Shown: one piece after another, positions 10,115 through 61,915 of the stretch
How positions within the stretch are numbered: position 1 is the first letter of the stretch
Layout of the letters: every line of letters starts with the position of its first letter
Assembly (NCBI GenBank): GCA_029582155.1
Contig: CM055895.1
Coordinates: 63,403,078-63,467,077, forward strand
DNA: 64,000 nucleotides
DNA from: Panopea generosa
Taxonomy: Eukaryota > Mollusca > Bivalvia > Adapedonta > Hiatellidae
Direction: 5' to 3'
Notes under the pieces: generated by a model
The model's database searches: none
What the model was told of the DNA's origin: nothing
What the model saw: only the letters and a program-made list of their open reading frames with translations
Translations under genes and position numbers: made by a program

Positions 10115-11130
10115 ACCATCCCATTTGCGATTTTACCCGCACATTGTTGATTTTACTCGCACATTGTTAATTTTACTCGCGCATTGTTCATTTTACCCGC
10201 ACATTGTTGATTTTACTCGCGCATTGTCCATTTTACCCACACATTGTTGATTTTACTCGGACATTGTTGATTTTACTCGCGCATTGTTTATTTTACTCGC
10301 ACATTGTTCATTTTACTCGCACATTGTTCATTTTACCCGATATTGTTAATTTTACTCACACATTGTTCGTTTTACCCGCCTTTGTTCGTTATACTCGCAC
10401 ATTGTTGATTTTACTCGCACATTGTTCATTTTGCTCGCACATTGTTCATTTTACCCGACATTATTCATTTTACTCGCACATGGACATTGTTCATTTTACC
10501 TGCATATTGGTGAGATTACCTCTCATATTAGCTAGTTTACCCTAATTTGGGCGATTTTACCCTCTCATTGAGGTATTCTTAACCTTCCCATTGGCGACTT
10601 TACCCTTTCATTGGTTATTTTACTCTTCCAATTGGTGATTATACTCTCATATTGGCGATTTTACCCTCATATTGATGATTTTACCCTCCTATTAGCGACT
10701 TTACTCTCCCATTGGCGACTTTACAATCCCAATGGCGGCTTAACAATCCCATTGGTGATTTTACATTCCCATTGGCAATTTTCCCCTTCCATTTGCGATT
10801 TTACACTCCCATTTTTTATTTTACTCTCCCTTTGGCGACTTTACAATCCCACTGGCGGCTTTACAATCCAATTGGTGATTTTACATTCCCATTTGCGATT
10901 ATACTCTCATATTGACGATTTTATCTTGATATTGGTGCTTTTACCCTTACTTTCGCAATGTAACCCTAATATTGACTTTTATCAATGTATTGGCGATTTA
11001 AGCATTCCATTTGTGCTTTTATCCTAAAAATGTTTACTTTACCATCACATTGGCGATTTGACCCTCTTAGTGACGAAGTTACCTTCCTATTGATGATTTT
11101 ACCCTCACCATTTACGAATTACCATCGACC
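10115..11130. repeat. Minisatellite array, 20-bp unit, two sub-families
   Basis: About 50 tandem copies of a 20-bp unit. The left part (10136-10505) is dominated by ACATTGTTGATTTTACTCGC variants. The right part (10505-11130) is dominated by CCCATTGGCGACTTTACAAT-like variants. ATT and TTTTAC are the shared core. Long open frames of 113 and 138 codons cross it because the unit has few stops, giving peptides that repeat every 20 residues. These are by-products, not genes. Copies differ at several positions, so the array is old. Confidence 0.9.
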
Positions 11131-14100
11131 GTTTCAAGATGAAACCCTTTATAACATTATAACATTCCTTATGTTTATAGTGCCATCATTTTGATACCTA
11201 AATACAATTTTGTTTTTTGAAAATAATTATACTGTTGTGATGGATATGTTGTCTCATTTGCACTCAATCAACGTCCTTGAACGCCATAGAGGTTGATAAA
11301 TTGATAAGGAACATGACAAGAAACGTTAAATTGACTTTTATCCAGTGTCTTCTTTTGAATGTTAAAATCGAAAAAAATATCATATCAATTATATTGCGGC
11401 TAAGACGACAATTTTAATTTATTAAGTATTTCTATGTTTCCATTATACATAATAGACAAAGCTGAAATCCTTTTAATACCGTCGTGTTATACTATAAACA
11501 TAAGGATGACTAATTTCATTTATTTAACTTCGATTGCGAAACAACTCCTTACAACTTTGGGCAAATCACGCTCGAAGCCTTTATGGTAGAACAGTTTCCA
11601 TAAAAATATTTCATTTGTTTTGTTTGAATTGTATTTATCAAATTTGTAATAAATCAGGCGCAATTTCCGTATTGTGTCTGTTTGCTAGATTTAAATCAGT
11701 TGTTGCTTTTCTAAACAAAAATATGAAAAAAGACGCAAATAATAATGACATGATAAGTGGAATACAGTGTCGTTGCCAGATAGTCTAAAATTTATCAGGT
11801 TCGGTTTTTCTTCCTTACCTGATATATTATAGACTATCAGACACTAACATGGTATTTTCTATTAAATTACAGTATGTATTTCAGGTTCGATAAAGATATG
11901 ATATTGATGTATGAATTGCACTAGATATGCAATGGACGGAACTGTTAACGAATGTTTACACACAGTGGTTTCAATAGTTACTTCTGTAACTGTGCCAAGC
12001 GATTTTGAAATTTTTTTCCTAAACTGTGCCATTATTTCTGTTACGGCGTGGTGCCGCAATCCGGTCGTTCAATATCTGTTGAACACTCTACCATATTTAT
12101 TCTACCGTTAACCTTTATAAGATTTTATCAATTACTATATGCTTTATTAGTAAAACATTATACAAAATCGAAAGTCAGCCACATAGGAACAGACAAATAA
12201 GAGACACGGGCCTGGAAATAATTAAAATATTGTGTTTTTTACCGTCCTCATTTTCTATCTTTATCAAATTTCACCAATTGTGAATAATGTAAAGTGACCT
12301 TTATAAACTTAAAAGCAGACAATCTTGTAAAGTTTTATATGATTTGCATTGCATGTTTGTCATACATAAATACGTGTTTATTCTCAAATCTGTTATTGTA
12401 TGTACAGGTGTATTATTATATGTCTGTCAGCCGGTTTGCTGTTTTTAATTGTACATGGAAACCATAGTTGCCAGCCATGATATAATTTTTAAATAGTAAT
12501 AATTAAACATAATTTATTATGTTTGTGCTGGATGTGTTGAAAAAGAATATGCCGCCATCCTCGGTGACCTTTTGATATTAATATTGACGTCATCAGATAG
12601 CCATTACATGCATATCTATTAGCGTTGTTGCTACATAACGGTATTCAATAACAATATGAAATTTGACGATTGTATAGATGAAACATTACGATAATGGCAA
12701 TAAAATTGTTATTTTTTATCTATATTAGATTTTGAAAATATAACAAAAGTCCATGTATTTTTAATTCATCTCGTATATACTTGTATATAATTTTTACCAT
12801 TTTGATAAATGCTAGATATCTTCATTTGTTCTTCATCCCCTAAACTAAAGTATGGACCTTATTTAATGAACTCATAAAGCGGATTGACTTATGATTTATT
12901 CAGAAACCAATTGCATTTAATTTGGCCTTTAAAATAAATGATTCTTAATATTTAGTATTTGCAGGTTACATTAAATAAGAGTACAGTACATGCAAAAACT
13001 TGGTCCTCGCCATGTTAAAACATTGAATACAATCATCTGAAAGCAGGTTTTATCTACAGATAATTGGTGATCGATTACACGTCAGATACATACAATGTAC
13101 GTATACCCAATTACTGTAAGTGAACCCCATTATGTTTCAGAACCTACATTTATAATATTATTGGAGACTACATAATGCATTAATTATATTTCATTCTTAA
13201 GTTTTGGTATTGTTTGACTACGGCTTAATATGTCTGACTTTCGTCAATTACAAATGGATAGCCCTAAAAATATATACCAATTCCTTCATGGGACAAATAG
13301 TTCACACAAAACACAATCCCCTTAGTCGGGCAAATAGGTCACATATCCCTCCAAAGATAATACGTCTTTTCAGTTTTATTTCACATAATTAAATGAAACC
13401 AGACCAAAGTGACAGCGATTGGAGACACACACATTACATATTACACCACTTAATAGTTCATCAGATTTAGATGTGAGACGTTTGGTATGTAACAATTCCA
13501 AATGCAAATGACACATCTCCATAGCCAATCTGTTACATTAATAAAAACAAAGCTGTGTCTTTAGTATACCAATCCATATGACCAACACGCCAGAGATAAA
13601 AATATCAAAATAAAGCGTTCATTGTAAACGTTTAAATGTCAAACGCTTTTCTGTTAATTTGTAATAGAGTGGTGGTATTAAATGCACTAATTTATACTCC
13701 TATCGAGAATATCAAGAAGTTTGGCATTTAGGTAAAAATTCTTGAAACGATTGGGCATGGCGCGATGGAAATAACTTTGGATCTTACCAGCACATAGTTT
13801 CTTTTACATCCAACAACAATTACCTATCGACTGGTGAAAGCTGCGTTAAGATACCCTTTTTCATAACCGATTGCCTCTGACCACTAAGGTTATGAGTACG
13901 AACTCATATTGGTCCAAATTTATTTCAAAAATGGTAGTTTGCTGGACTTTTTTGCGGAATGGCAGTAGTTCTCTTTAGATTGTTTTAATTCTATTCCGAT
14001 TAATGGACATATATGTATTTCTCAAGATTTTCTCATATAATTTTTTTAAATTACATATATTATTAATACAACACTTACTGTACTGTTTATTTGAAACATA

Positions 14101-14589
14101 TTGTCAGATAAAAGATTACATACAAATCAAATGATGCAGAAACGAGTTATAAGGTGTAAATTAATTTATATTTATATGGTTATGTGATATAGATATCCCA
14201 CAGTAAATATTTGAATTTAAATCAAAATGTGTGGAATTCTCTATGATTTCAATCACTTATTAATTACTAAACTTGTAAACAGTATTGAGCAAAAAGCAAT
14301 GAATAATTTTGTATTAAAATAACTTAAAAAAATAGAATACGTGCGTGGTTTAAATACTGTCATTAGTTGTATTGCTTAAGGACGATTACCATAGTTTTTC
14401 ATGTGCTCCAGTTCCGCGCACAAAAGGAAGCGATTTTGTCGAGATCAGCCAGTGTCACTACATACTATTATACTACAACTGACCAGATTTCAGATGACAT
14501 GCTCATCACGGATACACCTGAAATTGGCCTCTTCTAATGTTCAATATATGAAATATGCATACTGGTATGAAATAATTGTTTATTGCAAT
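11131..14589. other. No supported gene; short dispersed repeat at 11515-11577
   Basis: Long AT-rich interval. The segment 11515-11577 resembles 905-965. Short frames near 11534, 11911 and 14401 have no recognisable domain, and overlapping frames are open on both strands at 11862-12111, as expected by chance. No RNA gene was seen. Confidence 0.45.
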
Positions 14590-19720: not shown

Positions 19721-19758
19721 TTAACCCTTTACTCCAATCACAGAAGGCCTTTGAAAAA

Positions 19759-19813
19759 AGTGCAGGAAGAGTTCAGATTGCTCGTAACGAGCAATCCGAA
19801 CACTTCTTGCACT
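19759..19813. repeat. Palindrome inside the piggyBac-like MITE
   Basis: Two 27-base arms around a single central base (19786): AGTGCAGGAAGAGTT on the left and its inverted counterpart ending CACTTCTTGCACT on the right, with three mismatches. The central sequence is GCTCGTAACGAGC. It lies 26 bases inside the left terminus, a typical subterminal position. Confidence 0.85.
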
Positions 19814-19858
19814 GTTTTTCCACTCTGTCAGTTAATATAACATAATTCACCAAATAAT

Positions 19859-20224
19859 TCAAAAGGCTTCTATATAAGAGGTGTCCAAAGGCGTCTATAG
19901 TAGGTGTCTAAAGGCGTCTATATTAGAGGTGTCTAAAGGCGTCTATATTAGAGGTGTCCAAAGGCGTCTTTATTAGAGGTGTCAAAAAGCGTCTATATTA
20001 GAGTTGTCCAAAGGCGTCTATATTAGAGGTATCCAAAGGCGTCTATATTAGAGGTGTCCAAAGGCGTCTTTATTAGAGGTGTCAAAAAGCGTCTATATTA
20101 GAGGTGTTAAAAAGCGTCTATATTAGAGGTGTCCAAAGGTGTCTATATTAGAGGTGTCCAAAGGCGTCTATATTAGAGGTGTCCAAAGGCATCTATATAA
20201 GAGGTGTCAAAATGCGTCTATATG
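19859..20224. repeat. Minisatellite, 25-bp unit, about 14 copies
   Basis: Tandem units of the type AGGTGTCCAAAGGCGTCTA followed by TATTAG. Variants include AAAAAGCG for AAAGGCG and a shortened second copy. The array fills most of the interior of the TTAA-bounded element. Confidence 0.95.
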
Positions 20225-20239
20225 AAGTAAAGGGTTAAG

Positions 20240-20540
20240 TCAACCAATGACGCGGTGGCGTAGTGGTTATATAATTGTGTTTACTTTTCTTGGAAATACT
20301 TTGATATACCAGCGATAAATAGTTAAAATTTAGATCTTAGATGTTTTAAATATTTCTTTTTCTGGTATTTCTGTGATTAACCGAAAACTAATTTACAGGC
20401 ATACACGGAATAGTCAGTGCCTGTTCAATCCTAACGGACAATTAGAATGTGTTTTTATTTATCGATTTCTTTATATGCCTTTCATAACATCAGTCAAGTG
20501 TTACCGAATAGCGTGTACATTTAACACGTGCGACTGCATC

Positions 20541-20935: not shown

Positions 20936-21174
20936 ATGAATATTACTAACTGCTCAAGTCAACTCAGTGTTTCGATAAACTCGCTCATATCCGGTACTAG
21001 GCATATTTTTAAATTTTGAACGTTTTGGTGTCGTCATTCTTATGTCGGGACCGTGTTTATAACGTCATTGATGTTTGTCAGACATCAATCAATATTTGCA
21101 CAAAATATCAATAGGTTGGAAGTATAACTTAAATCTAATTATGTGTTTCTTTATCCTTAAAGTATATAAACCAG

Positions 21175-23742
21175 GCAATAGAATATGTATATGTTTTAAC
21201 AATCAACTATGTAATTATTTGAAAGGCTTCATTAATCCCAATTCCTCTAAAACAAGCATCCCAACACTTTTTCACAACAACATTACATACGAAACAAACA
21301 CAGAAAAAGCAGACATACTCAACACATTCTTTCAAGCACAAACACTCCTAGATGACACGAATAAAGGCCTCCTAAACCTTCCCATCAGCGATGACGGTCA
21401 TAAACTCACCAACATAAAAATTCTTAAATCAGGGAAAGCCACCGGTTCCGATACCATCAATAACATAGTGCTCTAAGAACTCTCAAACGATTTATCCCGA
21501 CCTCTGTGTGATCTCTTCAACTACTCCGTACGTCTATCCAAAGTTCCCCGTCAATGGAAACTAGCCCACGTCTGTGCAATCTACAAGAAGAAAGACCCTC
21601 ACGATGTTAGCAACTACAGGCCAATCTTCCTACTCAGTGAAATCAGTAAAATCCTCGAAAGGATTATCCGCAAACATGTATTTAACATCTTCCATGACAA
21701 CAACTTCATCTCTTCTTTTCAGTCTGGCTTCGTTCCCAAGGACTCTACTGTCAATCAGCTTACATATATTTACCATACATTTTGCAAGGCTCTAGATGAT
21801 GGTAAAGAGGTTCGAGCTGTCTTTTGTGATATATCTAAAGCTTTCGACCGCGTGTGGCATAAGGGACTCTTATTCAAACTTGAACACGTTGGTATCTCTG
21901 CCTCTCTTCTTCTTTGGTTCAAGGATTATTTAGCTGGCAGAACACAATGTGTAGTCCTTTCCAGGTCCACATCTGACACGGTTCCAATATCGGCTGGTGT
22001 TTCTCAAAGCTCAATTCTTTGTCCATTATTATTTTTTGTTTATATCAATGATATTGTTTCTGAAATAGGCTCTGCGATTCGCCTCTTTGCTGACGACACA
22101 ACCCTTTATGCTATTGTCGATAATCCTCAACATGCTGCTCTCCGTTTAAATTCTGACCTACAAAAGATCAATGATTGGACTTCAACCTGGCTAGTAACTT
22201 TTAATCCTGCTGAAACTAAATCTCTACTTATTCCTCGCAAACACGTCAAACCCCAGCACCCGCCCATATTCATAACTCTATTCAAATACAGGACGCTGAC
22301 AATCACAAACACCTTGGAATAACTCTATCTAACGATGGTACATGGCACAAACACATTGAAGACATCACCAAAAAAGCTTGGAATCGAGTCAACAATCTGC
22401 GCTGTCTCAAATTCACTCTTGACCGTCGGTCGCTTGAAACTATCTACACATCAGACCTACACTCCAATACACGTCGTTTGGGATAATTTAACGAAAGCTG
22501 AAGAAGAAAACCTCGAAAAAATCCTAATCGAAGCAGCTAGAATCATTACGGGAGCAACAAGCCTGATATCACTTAATAACGTATATAAAGAATGCGCTCT
22601 TGAGCCTTTGAAGTCCCGCAGACGAAAACACAAATTGATTCACTTCTATAAAATGCTCAACAGTCCCTTTACCCCTTCCTACTTATCTAATATGATCCCC
22701 ATGACAGTAGGTAATGTTGCAACCTATGACCTACGCTATTCTGGCCACAATAGGAACGTTTCCTTCCCTTCCCTCCACTATATCAGATTGGAACAAACTA
22801 CCCTCTGCCACCCGATCTGCTGCTTCCGTCGTGTCTTTCAAGCACAATCTAAATTCTAAAGAAGACTGTTCCAAAATTTTATTACGATGGTAAAAGAGAT
22901 TCGGCAATTCAGCATGCGCGGCTAGGATGCACTGCAGTTCCTTGAAAGAGCACCTATTTTCCAAAATCATTGTAGAAAGCCCTACCTGTGTCTGTACAGA
23001 AATTAAGGATACGTATCACCTTTTCTTCACATGCCGCTTATATCAACGCCAAAGAACTCTACTCCATGACGTCCTTCGTCCTTCGTCATTCGTCCTATTA
23101 CTCGTCTAGACCTAAACACACTACTGTTCGGCAACGACTCTCTTTCTGATGATGTCAATCGTAAAATATTTCACCATGTCCAAACATACATTTCGAAGAC
23201 CAAGCGTTTTATTCATTGAATTGAACTATCCTTTATTCCATAAGAGTGACCCACAACACCTCAAAAGGCATCCTGTGATCACACCTCTCTTTTCCTGTTT
23301 TTGTCTATCTACTTTATCTACCCTTTCCACTTTATTTTTACTCACATATTTTTTTTATTTTTTAAAATAATTTAAGTTATATACGGCAATTATTGATCAA
23401 TACTAGTACACACAACTCTCAGTAGTTGAAGCTTCGCATACGCCGCAGCCTATATACATACCCAATCAGCTACATCTGTATTCCCAACGATCAAGATACT
23501 TGCACATATTTATTATTTTCATCTCAAGCGCTGCTTATAATCCGTTTGTCTAGTACATATAATTAATGTGTTTTCATTGCATGTGTAACACCATTGTATA
23601 GTCCTTGCAAGATATTCAGAAGAGAGACTTTGTATAAGCTAGAAATAGCTTTCTTCTCAATTCTATTGTTATGTATCGCTGTATATTTGAATATATTTAT
23701 ATGTAATGTGTTAAAAACGAATAAATATTGTTTAAACTAATT
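21175..23742 (+). mobile_element. 5'-truncated CR1/Jockey-type LINE
   Basis: The element starts inside the protein-coding part, upstream of the RT domain, with no endonuclease domain, and ends near 23742 after an A/T-rich 3' region with ATAAATATTGTTTAAAC. Loss of the 5' end is what target-primed reverse transcription normally produces. The 3' untranslated part (23250-23742) contains CTTCTCAATTCTATTGTTAT and an AATAAA signal. No long poly-A tail is present. GC content is visibly higher than the flanks, consistent with insertion of a once-coding element. Confidence 0.8.
21200..23230 (+). pseudogene. LINE reverse transcriptase ORF2 remnant
   Basis: A single protein is spread over several frames. 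First comes linker sequence with SGKATGSD; then a TAA at 21474-21476; then, in the same frame, VCAIYKKKDPHDVSNYRPI, the first catalytic aspartate in FCDISKAFDRVWH (about 21820-21860), and LFADDTTLYAI with the catalytic F-A-D-D at about 22085-22100. The frame breaks near 22265 and resumes as DNHKHLGITLSNDGTWHKHI, the thumb-like region. It shifts again into KAEEENLEKILIEAARIITG, and a last piece has C-x-C-x6-H-x5-C (CVCTEIKDTYHLFFTC, about 22990-23035), a zinc-binding-like C-terminal motif. The usual P-Q-G before the catalytic box reads S-Q-S and a conserved glycine in S-I-L-G-P reads cysteine, so point damage affects the active core too. Such enzymes copy element RNA at a nicked target. This copy cannot act. 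Confidence 0.8.
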
Positions 23743-28439: not shown

Positions 28440-29210
28440 CGACTGAGTGCGTAGTAAATGTTATTATATATCATCTTGAATGCTTCAATCTGATTGGTTG
28501 AAACCCGAACGAAACAGGTCAAATAACATGAATTATTGACCACTTATTCCTTCAAAAGTTACCGAGTCAATAGTTAAACTGAACTGTGTATTTTATTCTG
28601 TAAATTAATACTGAAACTAAAGTGCCACTTTTTTAACGCTAAAATACAATTAAACCATTTTCCACATATAATGACGTCATAGTGTATACATATTGGCGTC
28701 GAAGGTGTTATTTTGATCAAGAGCGGATCCAGCATGTAGCTAAATACTGTTGATATTGTACTTTGAATAGTTTGAAATATTTTAAGTCAGAGAATATAAA
28801 TTTATTATGAAGGTTAGGAATGTAACCTTAATAGTTGAATTTGTTAATGGAGAACAGACATACAAAGGCTACGAAACAATAAATGCTTTTCACACCTCTG
28901 TTAAAAAAGCAATGAAAGTATAAATGAGGTGAGGTGAAAAACTTTTACTTCTTGACTTACCTTTTTTATTGTTATTCAGTATAATAAAAATAATATCTAC
29001 CTTTTTAGCGGTCAATGGTTAAAACTATTTATCTTCGGAAAATGACTATTGAATATTGACCTAAAGCAGTGAACTATTAACCTCGACTGCGTCTCGGTCA
29101 AAAGTTTCCTGCTTTAGGATCAATAGTCATTATTCTTGGATAAATAATTTTAACCATTGACCGCTGAAAAGGTAGATAGTTGTATACTATTTATTATATT
29201 CCGTAAATTA
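28440..29210 (+). mobile_element. Large palindrome-containing dispersed repeat, copy 2
   Basis: Contains GATCAAGAGCGGATCCAGCA, AGAACAGACATACAAAGGCT and GAGGTGAAAAACTTTTAC, then a central palindrome. In the palindrome ATCTACCTTTTTAGCGGTCA (about 28996-29015) is inverted as TGACCGCTGAAAAGGTAGAT (about 29158-29177). The inner arms carry GACTATTGAATATTGACC and the inverse GGATCAATAGTCATT, around CTCGACTGCGTCTCGGTCAA. No coding capacity. The copy is directly followed by a second one. Confidence 0.75.
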
Positions 29211-39605: not shown

Positions 39606-40022
39606 ACAGATAAATATATTTCTGTGAATGTGTTTAGATTATGATATTTCTGTTGGTTTGTTTAGATAATGATATTTCTTAGGATTTGTTAAGATAATGA
39701 TATTTCTGTGGATTTGCTTTTATATAATGATATTTTTGTGGATTTGTTAAGATAATGATATTTCTGAGTTTTTGTTTAGATAATGATATTTCTGTGGAAA
39801 TGTTTAGATAATGATATTTCTGTGAAATTATTTAGATAATGATAATTCTGTCGACTTGCAAGGAAAATGATATTACTGTGGAACTTTAAGATGTTGATAG
39901 TTCCGTGGATATGTGAAGGTAATGATTTTTTTGTCGATTTGTTTTGATAATAATATTTCTGTAAATCTGTTTGGATAATGCTTTATCTGTAGATTTGTTA
40001 AGATAATGCTATTTTTGTGAAT
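39606..40022. repeat. Minisatellite, 28-bp unit, about 15 copies
   Basis: Tandem units of the type GATAATGATATTTCTGTGG followed by ATTTGTTTA. The centre (39640-39840) is well conserved and the right side is degenerate. Confidence 0.9.
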
Positions 40023-49539: not shown

Positions 49540-49766
49540 AGGGAGAATCATACGTCTAACAAAACACCTTTCAGGAGCACCGGATCCGCGAATGATACAT
49601 AAATGGTAGAAATAGTGAATACAGTATAGATAATTACCATTTTACAGTTCTAAAACTTATAACGAGATATCCTTAGCTAGCTTTCGGCTTAACGCTTAAA
49701 GCCGAAAGCTAGCTAAAGATATCTCGTTATAAGTTTTAGCACTATATATATATATATATATATATA
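49503..49766. mobile_element. Hairpin-bearing insertion in a TA tract
   Basis: Bounded by (AT)n runs at 49503-49536 and 49743-49766. It interrupts an older repeat whose uninterrupted copy at 55780-56180 has only a short TATATATAT at the equivalent point, so this block is an insertion. It holds about 110 bases of unique sequence and then a strong hairpin. Confidence 0.7.
49650..49739. repeat. Near-perfect hairpin, 41-bp arms, 8-base loop
   Basis: The left arm (49650-49690) begins CTAAAACTTATAACGAGATA and ends CTTTCGGCTT. The right arm (49699-49739) is its inverse with a single mismatch. The loop is AACGCTTA. Such a stem could form a cruciform or, if transcribed, a long RNA hairpin. Confidence 0.95.
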
Positions 49767-57936: not shown

Positions 57937-57945
57937 ATTAAAAAG

Positions 57946-60900
57946 CAAATGATTATTATATATGCTAAATATCTAGAGGTACTACAGAAAGCGATTAGAT
58001 TACCTATGTTAAATATGTAGATGTACTATTGCAAGCAAATATATTATATATTTTAAATATTCAGATGTATTATTGAAAGCAAATATATTATATATGTTAA
58101 AGAGCTTGAAGTACTATTGAAGGCAATTAGATTATCTATGTTAAATACCTCGATGTCCTATTGAAAGCAAATAGGTTATATATGTTAAATATCTAGATGT
58201 ACTATTGAAGGCAAGTAGAGTATCTATATTAAATACCTCGATGTCCTATTGAAAGCAAATAGGTTATATATGTTAAATATCTAGATGTACTATTGAAAGC
58301 AAATAGAGTATCTATGTTAAATATCTAGATGTTCTACTTAAAGCAAATAGATTATATATGTTAAATATCTAGATGTACTATTGGAAGCAATAAATTATAT
58401 ATGTTAAATATCTAGATGAACTATTGAAGGTCAATAGATGTCTAGATGTACTGTTGAAAGCAAATACAGTATCTATGTGAAATATCAAGATGTACTATTG
58501 AAAGCAAATAGATTATATGATTTATGTTAATATCAAGACTGTACTATTGAAGTCAAATAAATTAAATTAATTAATTATCTAGATGTACTACTGAAGGCAG
58601 ATAGATAATCTATGTTAAATATCTAGATGTACTACTCAAGGCAAATAGAGTATCTATCTTAAATATCTAGATGTACTATTGAAAGCAAACAGATAATATA
58701 TGTTTCATATCTAGATGTACTAAAGAAAGCAATTAGATTATATATGTTAAAAATCAAGATGTAATTTTGAGAGCAAAAAGATTATCTATGTTAAATATCT
58801 AAATGTACTATTCAAAGCAAATATATGTGTTAAATATATAGATGTAGTATTAAAAGCAATTAGATTATCTATGTTAAATATCTAGATGTACTATTGAAAG
58901 CAAATAGAGTATATATGTTAAATATCTCGGTGTAGTCTTGAAAGCAAATAGATTATATGTTAAATATCTAGATGTACTATAGAAAGCAATTAGATTATAT
59001 ATGGTGACTATCTAGATGTACTATTGAAAGCCAATAGATTATATATATTAAATATCTAGATGCACTATTGAAAGCAAATATATTATCTATGTGAAACATC
59101 TAGATGGACTATTGACAGCAAATAGATTATTTATGTGAAATATCTATACGTACTTTTGAAAGCAATTGATTATCTATGTGAAATATCTATATGTACTATT
59201 ATTGAAAGAAAATAGATAATATATGTAAATATCGAGATGTACTATTGAAAGCAAATATATTATATATGTTAAATATTTAGATGTACTTCTGAAAGCAAAT
59301 ATATTATATATGTTAAATATTTAAATGTACTACTGAAGGCAAAAATATTATCTATGTTAAATATCTCGATGTACAGTTGAAGGCAATTATAGTATATATG
59401 TAAATATCTAGATGCACTATTGAAAGCAATTGATTTTCTATGTGAAATATCTAGATGTATTATTGAAGGCAAATAGATTATCGCTGTTACAAACTTCAAT
59501 GTACAATTGAAAGCAAATAGATTATATATCTTAAATATGTAGATGTACTATTGAAGGAAAATAGATAATATATGTTAAATATCTAGATGTACTATTGAAA
59601 ACAAATAGATTATATTATAAATATCTAGATGTACTTCTGAAAGCAAATATATTATATATGTTAATATCTAAATGTACTACTGAAGGCAAAAATATTATCT
59701 ATGTAAAATATCTATATGTACATTTGAAGGCAATTATAGTATATATGTTAAATATCTAGATGTACTCTTGAAAGCAATTGATTTTATATGTGAAATATCT
59801 AGATGTATTATTGAAGGCAAATATATTATCGATATTACAAACTTCAATGTACAATTGAAAGCAAATAAATATATATCTTAAATATCTAGATGTACTATTG
59901 AAGGAAAATGAAATATCTATGTGAAATATCAAGATGTACTATTGAAAGCATATGGATTATTGATGTTAAATATCTAGATGTACTATTGAATACACATGGC
60001 TTATTATATGTTAAATATCAAGATCTACTATTGAAAACAAATAGATAATATATGTTAAATATCCAGATGTACTATTGAAAGCAAATGGATTATTATGTGA
60101 AATATCTATATGTACTATTGAGAGCAAATGGATTATTTATGAGAAATATCTGTAAGGTCTATTGAAAGCGAATAGATTATCTGTGTGAAATATTTAGATT
60201 GACTATCAAAAGCAAACGGATTATCTAAGTTAATTATCTTAATGTACTATTCAAAGCAAATATATATGTTAAATAACTAGATGTAGTATTGAAAGCAATT
60301 AGGTTATCTATGTTAAATATCTAGATGCACTATTGAAAGCAAATATATTATATATGTTAAATATCTAGATGTAGTCTTGAAAGCAAATAGATTATATATG
60401 TTAAATATCAAGATGTACTATTGAAAGCAATTAGATTATATATGTTGAATATCGAGATGTACTTTTGAAAGCAAATAGATAATATGTGTTAAATATATAG
60501 ATGTACTATTGAAAGCAAATAAATTATCTATGTGAAATATCTAGATGGACTATTGACAGCAAATAGATTATTTATGTGAAATATATATATATATGTATTT
60601 TTGAAAGCAACTGATTATTTATGTGAAATATCTAGATGTACTATTGAAAGCAAAAGATAATATATGTTAAATATCTAGATGTACTATTGAAAGCAAATAA
60701 GTTATTTATGTTTAATATCTAAATGTACTATTAAAAGCAATTAGATTACATATGTTTAATATATAGATGTACTATTGAAAGCAAATAGATAATATATGTT
60801 AAATATCTAGATGTACTATAGAAAGCAATTTGAATATATATGTTGAATATCTAAATGTACTACTGCAAGCCAATAGATTATATATGTTAAATATCTAGTT

Positions 60901-61915
60901 GTACTATTGAAAGCAAATAGATTTTATAAGTTAAATAACTAGATGTACTGTTGAAAGCCAATAGATTATATATGTTAAATATCTAGATGTACGCTTGAAA
61001 GCAAATAGATTATATATGTTAAATATCAAGATGTACTATTGAAAGCAATTAGATTATATATGTTGAATATCGAGATGTACTTTTGAAAGCAAATAGATAA
61101 TATGTGTTAAATATATAGATGTACTATTGAAAGCAAATAAATTATCTATGTGAAATATCTAGATGGACTATTGACAGCAAATAGATTATTTATGTGAAAT
61201 ATATATATATATGTATTTTTGAAAGCAACTGATTATTTATGTGAAATATCTAGATGTACTATTGAAAGCAAAAGATAATATATGTTAAATATCTAGATGT
61301 ACTATTGAAAGCAAATAAGTTATTTATGTTTAATATCTAAATGTACTATTAAAAGCAATTAGATTACATATGTTTAATATATAGATGTACTATTGAAAGC
61401 AAATAGATAATATATGTTAAATATCTAGATGTACTATAGAAAGCAATTTGAATATATATGTTGAATATCTAAATGTACTACTGCAAGCCAATAGATTATA
61501 TATGTTAAATATCTAGTTGTACTATTGAAAGCAAATAGATTTTATAAGTTAAATAACTAGATGTACTGTTGAAAGCCAATAGATTATATATGTTAAATAT
61601 CTAGATGTACGCTTGAGAGCAAAAAGATTGTATATGTTTAATATCTAGATGTACTTTTGAAAGCAATTAGATTATAAATATTAAATATCTAGATGTACTA
61701 TTGAAAGCAATTAGATTATATATGTTGAATATCTAGATGTGCTATTGAAAGCAAATATATTATATATGTTAAATATCTAGATTTACTATTGAAAGCAAAT
61801 AGATTATATATGTTAAATATCTAGATATACTATTCAAAGCAATTAGATTATATATGTTAAATATATAAATGTACTATTTAAAGCAATTAGATTATCTGTG
61901 TTAAATACCTCAATG
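57946..61915. repeat. Satellite array, 44-bp unit, about 90 copies
   Basis: The consensus contains AAATATCTAGATGTACTATT, then GAAAGCAAATAG, then ATTATATATGTT. Unit length is 42-46 bases. Copies vary mainly at the AT-rich linker and at TCTAGATGTA. Nested duplications are visible: 88 bp (2 units) at 58143-58318, 348 bp (8 units) between about 59272 and 59912, and 618 bp (14 units) at about 60376-61611. Short minus-strand frames in it are artefacts. Left edge after a TG/CG microsatellite; right edge fades near 61915. Confidence 0.95.
60376..61611. repeat. Near-identical 618-bp higher-order duplication in the satellite
   Basis: The block from about 60376 to 60993 is repeated almost without change from about 60994 to 61611, including idiosyncratic features such as ATATATATATATGTATTTTT and the shortened GCAAAAGATAATATATG unit. 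Neighbouring units differ far more from each other than these two blocks do. Confidence 0.9.

Follow-up and report, generated by a model that had tools for sequence, protein, structure and literature searches.

Does the 25-bp minisatellite in this window (the whole stretch of Panopea generosa DNA that was analysed, 64 kb) belong to a transposable element, and if it does, was the repeat born inside that element or taken up from elsewhere? The sequence-only reading had placed it inside a piggyBac-like MITE. The features of the window copy are as follows.

19721-20238, + strand: whole MITE copy, form B, 518 bp with TTAA on both sides
19721-19733, + strand: left terminal inverted repeat with TTAA, TTAACCCTTTACT
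19754-19818, no strand: subterminal palindrome, two 32-nt arms
19859-20213, + strand: 25-bp tandem array, about 14 units (Tandem Repeats Finder span 19862-20223)
19935-20134, + strand: two adjoining 100-bp blocks of 4 units each, matching at 95/100 positions
20214-20238, + strand: right terminal repeat, 25 bp, in register of the last array unit

The inverted ends are perfect over 13 bases including TTAA, as had been claimed; the right tip at 20226-20238 is the exact complement of the left tip, and no further exact copy of the tip is found in the 64-kb window beyond the two element ends. The inverted repeat of this copy reaches 16 nt at 94%. The palindrome, earlier described as 55 bp long and 26 bases from the left end, is present but in fact longer: the arms at 19754-19785 and 19787-19818 are 32 nt each, 88% complementary and 1 nt apart, and a 55-bp middle part of it would fit 26 nt inside the left 13-bp tip. 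Folded as single-stranded DNA the palindrome gives -25.1 kcal/mol (z -8.7), with none of 200 shuffles as good. Tandem Repeats Finder reports a period of 25, 14.6 copies and 89% matches for the array, in agreement with the about 14 copies noted before. The array is unbroken and in register up to the right terminal inverted repeat (TIR), where the last 25 bases of the copy, GCGTCTATATGAAGTAAAGGGTTAA, take the place of a final unit, and its first unit bears the form B junction, here CAAAAGGCTTCTATAT and commonly CAAAAGCCTTCTATAT. The two adjoining four-unit blocks are a block duplication inside the array. The copy is without 23 bp of the inner left end after 19735, which normally follow CTCC in the canonical ATAGATACGCG...CACC, and because these bases just inside the left tip are lost the copy itself may be immobile. 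None of the nine open reading frames of at least 110 amino acids in the window reaches into the element.

The genome searched comprises 1.474 Gb in 39 contigs, with the window on contig C2. A search with the element yielded 6166 candidates, of which 40 were scored, and a list of 116 matches. The sequence of 40 places, among them that of the window, was retrieved for study, and one place that had received two names (L023 and L060) counts once. Since it was resemblance to the 14-unit window copy that selected these best places, their arrays give too high an estimate of array length in the family. The array is not confined to the window locus, since all 40 distinct places, on many contigs, carry at least part of the palindrome together with an array. 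Nor do the ends of other copies fail to flank it: both ends could be measured at 33 of the 40 places. In 24 of these 33 the TTAA is intact on both sides. The non-array part of the two-ended copies diverges on average 4.5% from the consensus, and the flanks are unlike between copies, scattered shared repeats aside. Among the scored places outside the two-ended set, L034 has a left end and about 26 units but no recognisable right end. That place (G000:C6:37917300-37920000) contains two family copies in opposite orientation about 1 kb apart, the other of 248 bp with about two units; the 248-bp neighbour is still included in the 652-unit set, the 34-copy alignment and the 39-copy tree used below.

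The count of elements proposed earlier gave 12,594 left ends in the genome (38-bp pattern, up to 3 mismatches) and 14,323 right ends (39-bp pattern, up to 3 mismatches), the right-end figure not being an array count because the 39-bp pattern holds part of one unit, as does the base form. The backwards pattern gave 0 matches in each case. TTAACCCTTTACTCCATAGATACGCGTTTTCCCGCACC is the canonical left end. Over 25 bp the left and right ends agree at 22/25 positions, a score reached in 0/2000 shuffles; without TTAA this corresponds to an imperfect TIR of about 21 bp. With its short base form of 230 bp, non-coding sequence, TIRs and high copy number, the family has the properties of a MITE. Its palindrome consensus is self-complementary at 64/67 positions. 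Deletions of the hairpin tip in L027, L028, L050 and L054 suggest that the palindrome is unstable. The idea that it is kept by selection was dropped, the alignment of 34 copies read by eye showing scattered changes in one arm besides some hairpin-tip deletions. At C2:30403777-30406953 six exact left ends lie on one strand with spacings of 455, 700, 584, 700 and 700 bp; whole elements seem to stand in tandem there, possibly the start of a satellite with the MITE as monomer.

Insertion at TTAA was studied by joining the two flanks of a copy with one TTAA and comparing the product with the other fetched sequence. Thirty-six alignments, from seven copies, cross the junction, and in five of them, from two of the seven comparable copies (L024 and L046), the relative reads a single TTAA. 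The cleanest empty site is that of L046 against L047, with 79.9% identity over 229 columns and no gap near the junction, and L046 gives the same reading against the window. The L024 comparisons with a single TTAA are those against L051, L062 and the window, where one gap lies close by. The remaining 31 alignments show four bases that differ or are gapped in the relative: TTAG is the commonest reading at the L047 junction (9/12), all eight alignments at the L057 junction are heavily gapped, and the L053 junction is diverged or gapped. The compared relatives being diverged repeats, the comparison supports a putative TTAA duplication upon insertion of two copies and leaves the other five undecided.

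TTAA followed by CC[C/T]T at the ends is given as a hallmark of piggyBac elements (PMC2872659), and CCCTT as their most conserved end motif (PMC10813416), in the accessible parts of these papers. The ends found here, CCCTTTACT, agree with the CC[C/T]T start and with the TIRs mostly under about 20 bp described in the same accessible parts, and the TTAA at both ends of 24/33 two-ended copies agrees with the target site. The genome has 121 matches to the piggyBac transposase domain (PF13843), the best of them in open frames of about 430-563 codons. The earlier piggyBac-like assignment thus gains support from TTAA, from the CCCTTT tips, from some paralogous empty sites with a single TTAA and from open transposase frames in the genome. 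Thirty of the 121 matches were read as loci, many with too little flank to show both ends, and among these no autonomous element with ends identical to those of the MITE was found. The nearest is L070, a 497-aa frame with both ends present and tips 89-90% like the MITE over 19-20 nt. At L072, L085, L091, L093 and L094 one end-like match each was seen, of about 90% over 20-22 nt, and a further 4.6 kb at L072 gave no second end. Several piggyBac families among the 30 loci have TTAACC ends of their own. One piggyBac family, at L073, L077-L080, L082, L083, L086-L089 and L092, looks recently active: its frames of 554-563 aa share 97-100% identity between loci, and its ends are TTAACCCCTTCACTGCC. 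At the left end of L070, from position 312, a motif like CTAGCGCCCCAGGACGCC occurs several times at a spacing of a few tens of bases, which recalls the repeated subterminal sites of piggyBat.

An exact-pattern scan of public collections gave the 16-base left tip in 17 viral contigs and the palindrome core alone in one, with no occurrence of the unit pattern in viral contigs. No partner end was found beside the viral tips within the 3.5 kb examined, or within the shorter sequence available, in the 17 contigs. A bacterial contig (L001) with a 20-base unit pattern is ordinary-looking bacterial DNA with no tandem repeat, and the match was taken as chance.

The window holds other repeats besides. 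A 44-bp tandem array at 57942-61907 has about 79 copies, a higher-order period of 132 bp and strong GC skew; minisatellites of a 20-bp, TTTTAC-rich unit and of a 28-bp unit lie at 10128-10944 and 39608-40019. None of the three has long flanking inverted repeats. Near-palindromes, scored against their own reverse complement, are found at 28994-29186 (77% over 191) and 49643-49746 (90% over 104) and are probably other foldback or MITE-like elements. At 21072-22859 lies a broken reverse transcriptase (Pfam RVT_1, E 7.4e-26, middle frame only), by its look from a non-LTR element. The sequence GGTGGCGTAGTGGTTA at 20254-20269, adjoining the right end of the element, is similar to the A box of a tRNA-derived SINE. 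At gathering score, neither a tRNA nor an Rfam match was obtained in the window.

A second sample, meant to be free of the bias that a 14-unit query brings, was made up of the 22 zero-mismatch left ends that head the list for contig C1; it was thus selected for intact left ends and unselected for arrays. The base element, 230 bp long, has the left TIR followed by the long palindrome, a spacer and one 25-bp stretch, ATATTAGAGGTGTCCAAAGGCGTCT, which passes into the inner right TIR. Two more copies of this form, 97% and 90% like the 230-bp element, lie by chance in L065. Two forms were distinguished in the sample. Form A comprised nine copies, seven of them elements of 204-230 bp with one unit each, ending like ...GGTGAATTAATGCTTTCAATATTAGAGGTGTCCAAAGGCGTCTATATGAAGTAAAGGGTTAA, and two with the right part decayed or missing; two or more units were found in none of the nine. 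Form B, with the junction CAATAATTCAAAAGCCTTCTATATTAG, comprised 13 copies, of which ten have two or more units (2, at least 2, 4, 2, about 13 running off the stretch, 3, 6, 2, 2 and 2), two have one, and one was left out because of an internal deletion. Two or more units are therefore present in 10/12 form B copies vs 0/9 of form A (Fisher p 0.0002; an earlier count of 9/13 gave p 0.0017). This link between form B and the array is an association and not a test of cause, because related copies are not independent; it counts copies and not events, and form B may descend from a master that already had two units.

Direct repeats 25 bp apart bound the unit in the one typical sequence compared for each form, ATAT (4 bp) in form A and TCTATAT (7 bp) in form B, which suggests slippage as the seed of the array. 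The review PMC6947457, in its accessible part, says that slippage or unequal crossing-over between flanking repeats of 5-10 bp seems to have started some minisatellites. There are counterexamples in both directions. L050, with about 34 units, has a form A junction, which shows that an array does not need the junction of form B; L111 is a form A copy with TTTCTATAT, that is the 7-bp TCTATAT repeat, yet has one unit. Forms A and B as clades were rejected, the tree of 39 copies being star-like with five label changes, no fewer than in shuffles. Derivation of the whole array unit from the TIR was also rejected: agreement is limited to the inner 10 bases, the match of the right end's outer 15 bases to the unit is no better than in shuffles (280/2000), and that of the first 26 bases of the left end is weak (49/2000). 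The explanation that took its place is that the unit simply overlaps the inner right TIR in the base form. The one-unit form is presumably the older one; an array-bearing ancestor that lost units is a possible alternative.

Among the 33 two-ended copies, a set picked for resemblance to the window copy, the number of units is 12.8-54.5 with a median of 18.0. The longest array, about 112 units up to the right end, was found in L061, a longer fetch of L056, where the left end is seen. Between loci the number of units thus runs from 1 to about 112, a variation between copies as expected of a minisatellite (VNTR). Array length is uncorrelated with divergence of the non-array part (rho 0.04, p 0.81, 33 copies), so that steady growth with age is not supported. 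Units at the edges keep their own variants while the number of inner units changes. The least conserved positions of the unit are those of the CpG at 2-3 (652 units), which would fit decay by methylation. The unit contains GCGTCT, the inner part of the right TIR, and the left end resembles it (GCGTATCTAT). The earlier suggestion of an expanding array between transposition-competent ends is supported for the most part. An array between the ends does recur; the word expanding is an interpretation of lengths compared between loci, many copies are short, and the window copy, as noted, is perhaps not competent.

The reading preferred here, with a probability of roughly 0.82, is that of a high-copy piggyBac-type MITE whose internal minisatellite was born from the element's own 25-bp stretch by slippage or misaligned repair, grew, and was spread with the element. 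A transposase encoded elsewhere would cut at the CCCTTT... tips and insert the element at TTAA, as the ends, the dispersal and the empty sites suggest. Replication slippage or misaligned repair between the short repeat copies would have duplicated the 25-bp stretch, and later slippage or unequal exchange of units or blocks would have led to arrays of 2 to more than 100 units; the range of lengths is observed, the mechanism is the presumed part, and the 100-bp block duplication in the window would fit such exchange. Because the array sits between the ends of the element it would be carried to new loci with it, as the recurrence of the same junctions at unlinked loci indicates.

One competing explanation is that a minisatellite happens to sit between two unrelated TTAA-containing inverted repeats. 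A perfect inverted pair of 13-mers with TTAA at the start and a distance of 60-3000 nt occurs on average 0.475 times in Markov shuffles of the 64 kb (40 shuffles) and is by itself unremarkable in an AT-rich window. Among ten arrays tested in the window, flanking inverted repeats score 13 only at this one and 7-9 at the other nine, and 1/200 random flank pairs attained 13. It is the joint recurrence of ends, palindrome and array, with both ends measured at 33/40 places, that refutes coincidence and leaves it a negligible probability. Assignment to a Kolobok-type (T2-MITE-like) element, of another superfamily that duplicates TTAA, is very improbable: the target site and the internal tandem repeats are shared, Xenopus Xmix/Xstir having an amplified internal repeat, but the accessible text of PMC6004289 gives purines (RR; AGGRR in T2-MITE) as the terminal bases of Kolobok, and the present ends start with CCC.

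The other two alternatives accept the element and concern the array. That a pre-existing minisatellite was captured, and not born from the element's own single stretch, follows a model published for the Xenopus miDNA4 MITE (accessible part of PMC12628747). It is considered unlikely here, the unit being present once in the 230-bp base form, in register with the inner right TIR and overlapping it, and because a single unit is already there no outside source is needed. Growth of the array might also be driven by transposition itself, through gap repair from the sister chromatid after excision, with misalignment and possibly with the palindrome stalling synthesis. The arrays do lie inside a transposon beside a 67-bp palindrome of suggested instability, as the hairpin-tip deletions indicate, and a palindrome adjoining a minisatellite has been proposed to promote slippage (accessible part of PMC2820488); array length, however, is unrelated to divergence, and the link between changes in length and excision is a hypothetical one, which makes this version possible but doubtful. 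Birth of the array from the element's own stretch remains the preferred reading.

MITEs with internal tandem repeats have been described from Xenopus (Xstir, miDNA4) and bivalves (pearl, DTC84) in the accessible parts of PMC12628747, PMC6004289 and PMC5139131; what is new here is a piggyBac-type variant. No published piggyBac-type MITE with an internal minisatellite was met in the literature searched, which was mostly without subscription papers, and one may be in print. Comparisons below follow the accessible parts of the papers cited. The coral CMITE (PMC2872659) is similar in its TTAA duplication, its CCCTTT tips in 5/6 families of Table 1, its short non-coding sequence and its link to piggyBac-like transposons in the genome that carries it; in corals, too, whole elements can stand in tandem, as C2:30403777-30406953 suggests here. 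It differs in being about 100 bp long with a conserved interior, and an internal minisatellite is unmentioned in the accessible text. The T2-MITE Xmix/Xstir of Xenopus (PMC6004289, PMC12628747), of Kolobok type, is likewise a TTAA MITE in which an internal segment was amplified into tandem repeats and spread, but has purine-starting ends and belongs to a different superfamily. Members of the bivalve pearl family, such as DTC84 of Donax trunculus (per PMC5139131), are molluscan, non-autonomous elements that contain tandem repeats and, close to the repeat junction, a conserved palindrome; their arrays are short, up to six monomers, and TTAA ends are unmentioned in the accessible text. The Tc1/mariner MITE miDNA4 (PMC12628747) has its repeat as one monomer or as a variable array and is proposed to seed satellite DNA, but it belongs to another superfamily, with a proposed capture as opposed to birth from the element's own end here. 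In piggyBac and piggyBat (PMC11707139) the transposase binds, as a dimer, to subterminal palindromes and to motifs repeated close to the tips; the palindromes are short (19 bp in piggyBac) vs one of about 67 bp here with a many-unit array at the other end. A third transposase-bound site lowers the activity of piggyBat in the same source. Satellites of oysters are treated in PMC8268682 and PMC11136912, as far as their accessible parts go.

It is known that dispersed DNA can become tandem through transposons that bear tandem repeats, but the first step of this route is usually lost. In this genome, copies of the base form with one unit occur beside the seed repeats, short arrays and one array of about 112 units, all in a family with about 12,600 to 14,300 recognisable ends. 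How long a flanking repeat has to be to seed a minisatellite, and how the array then grows, could be measured over many loci. Tentatively, the family may be regarded as a natural replicate experiment on the birth of minisatellites, with thousands of copies of one 25-bp seed in two forms, B and A, whose typical sequences have flanking repeats of 7 vs 4 bp and which have arrays in 10/12 vs 0/9 of the sampled copies. As the unit and the inner half of the right terminal repeat overlap, a growing array would also multiply a putative transposase-binding motif (GCGTCTATAT, with the likeness of the left end noted above), and might, equally tentatively, tune mobility up or, like the third site of piggyBat, down. 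The repeat would have been spread around the genome by the element, and it can be compared across copies with one, few or many units.
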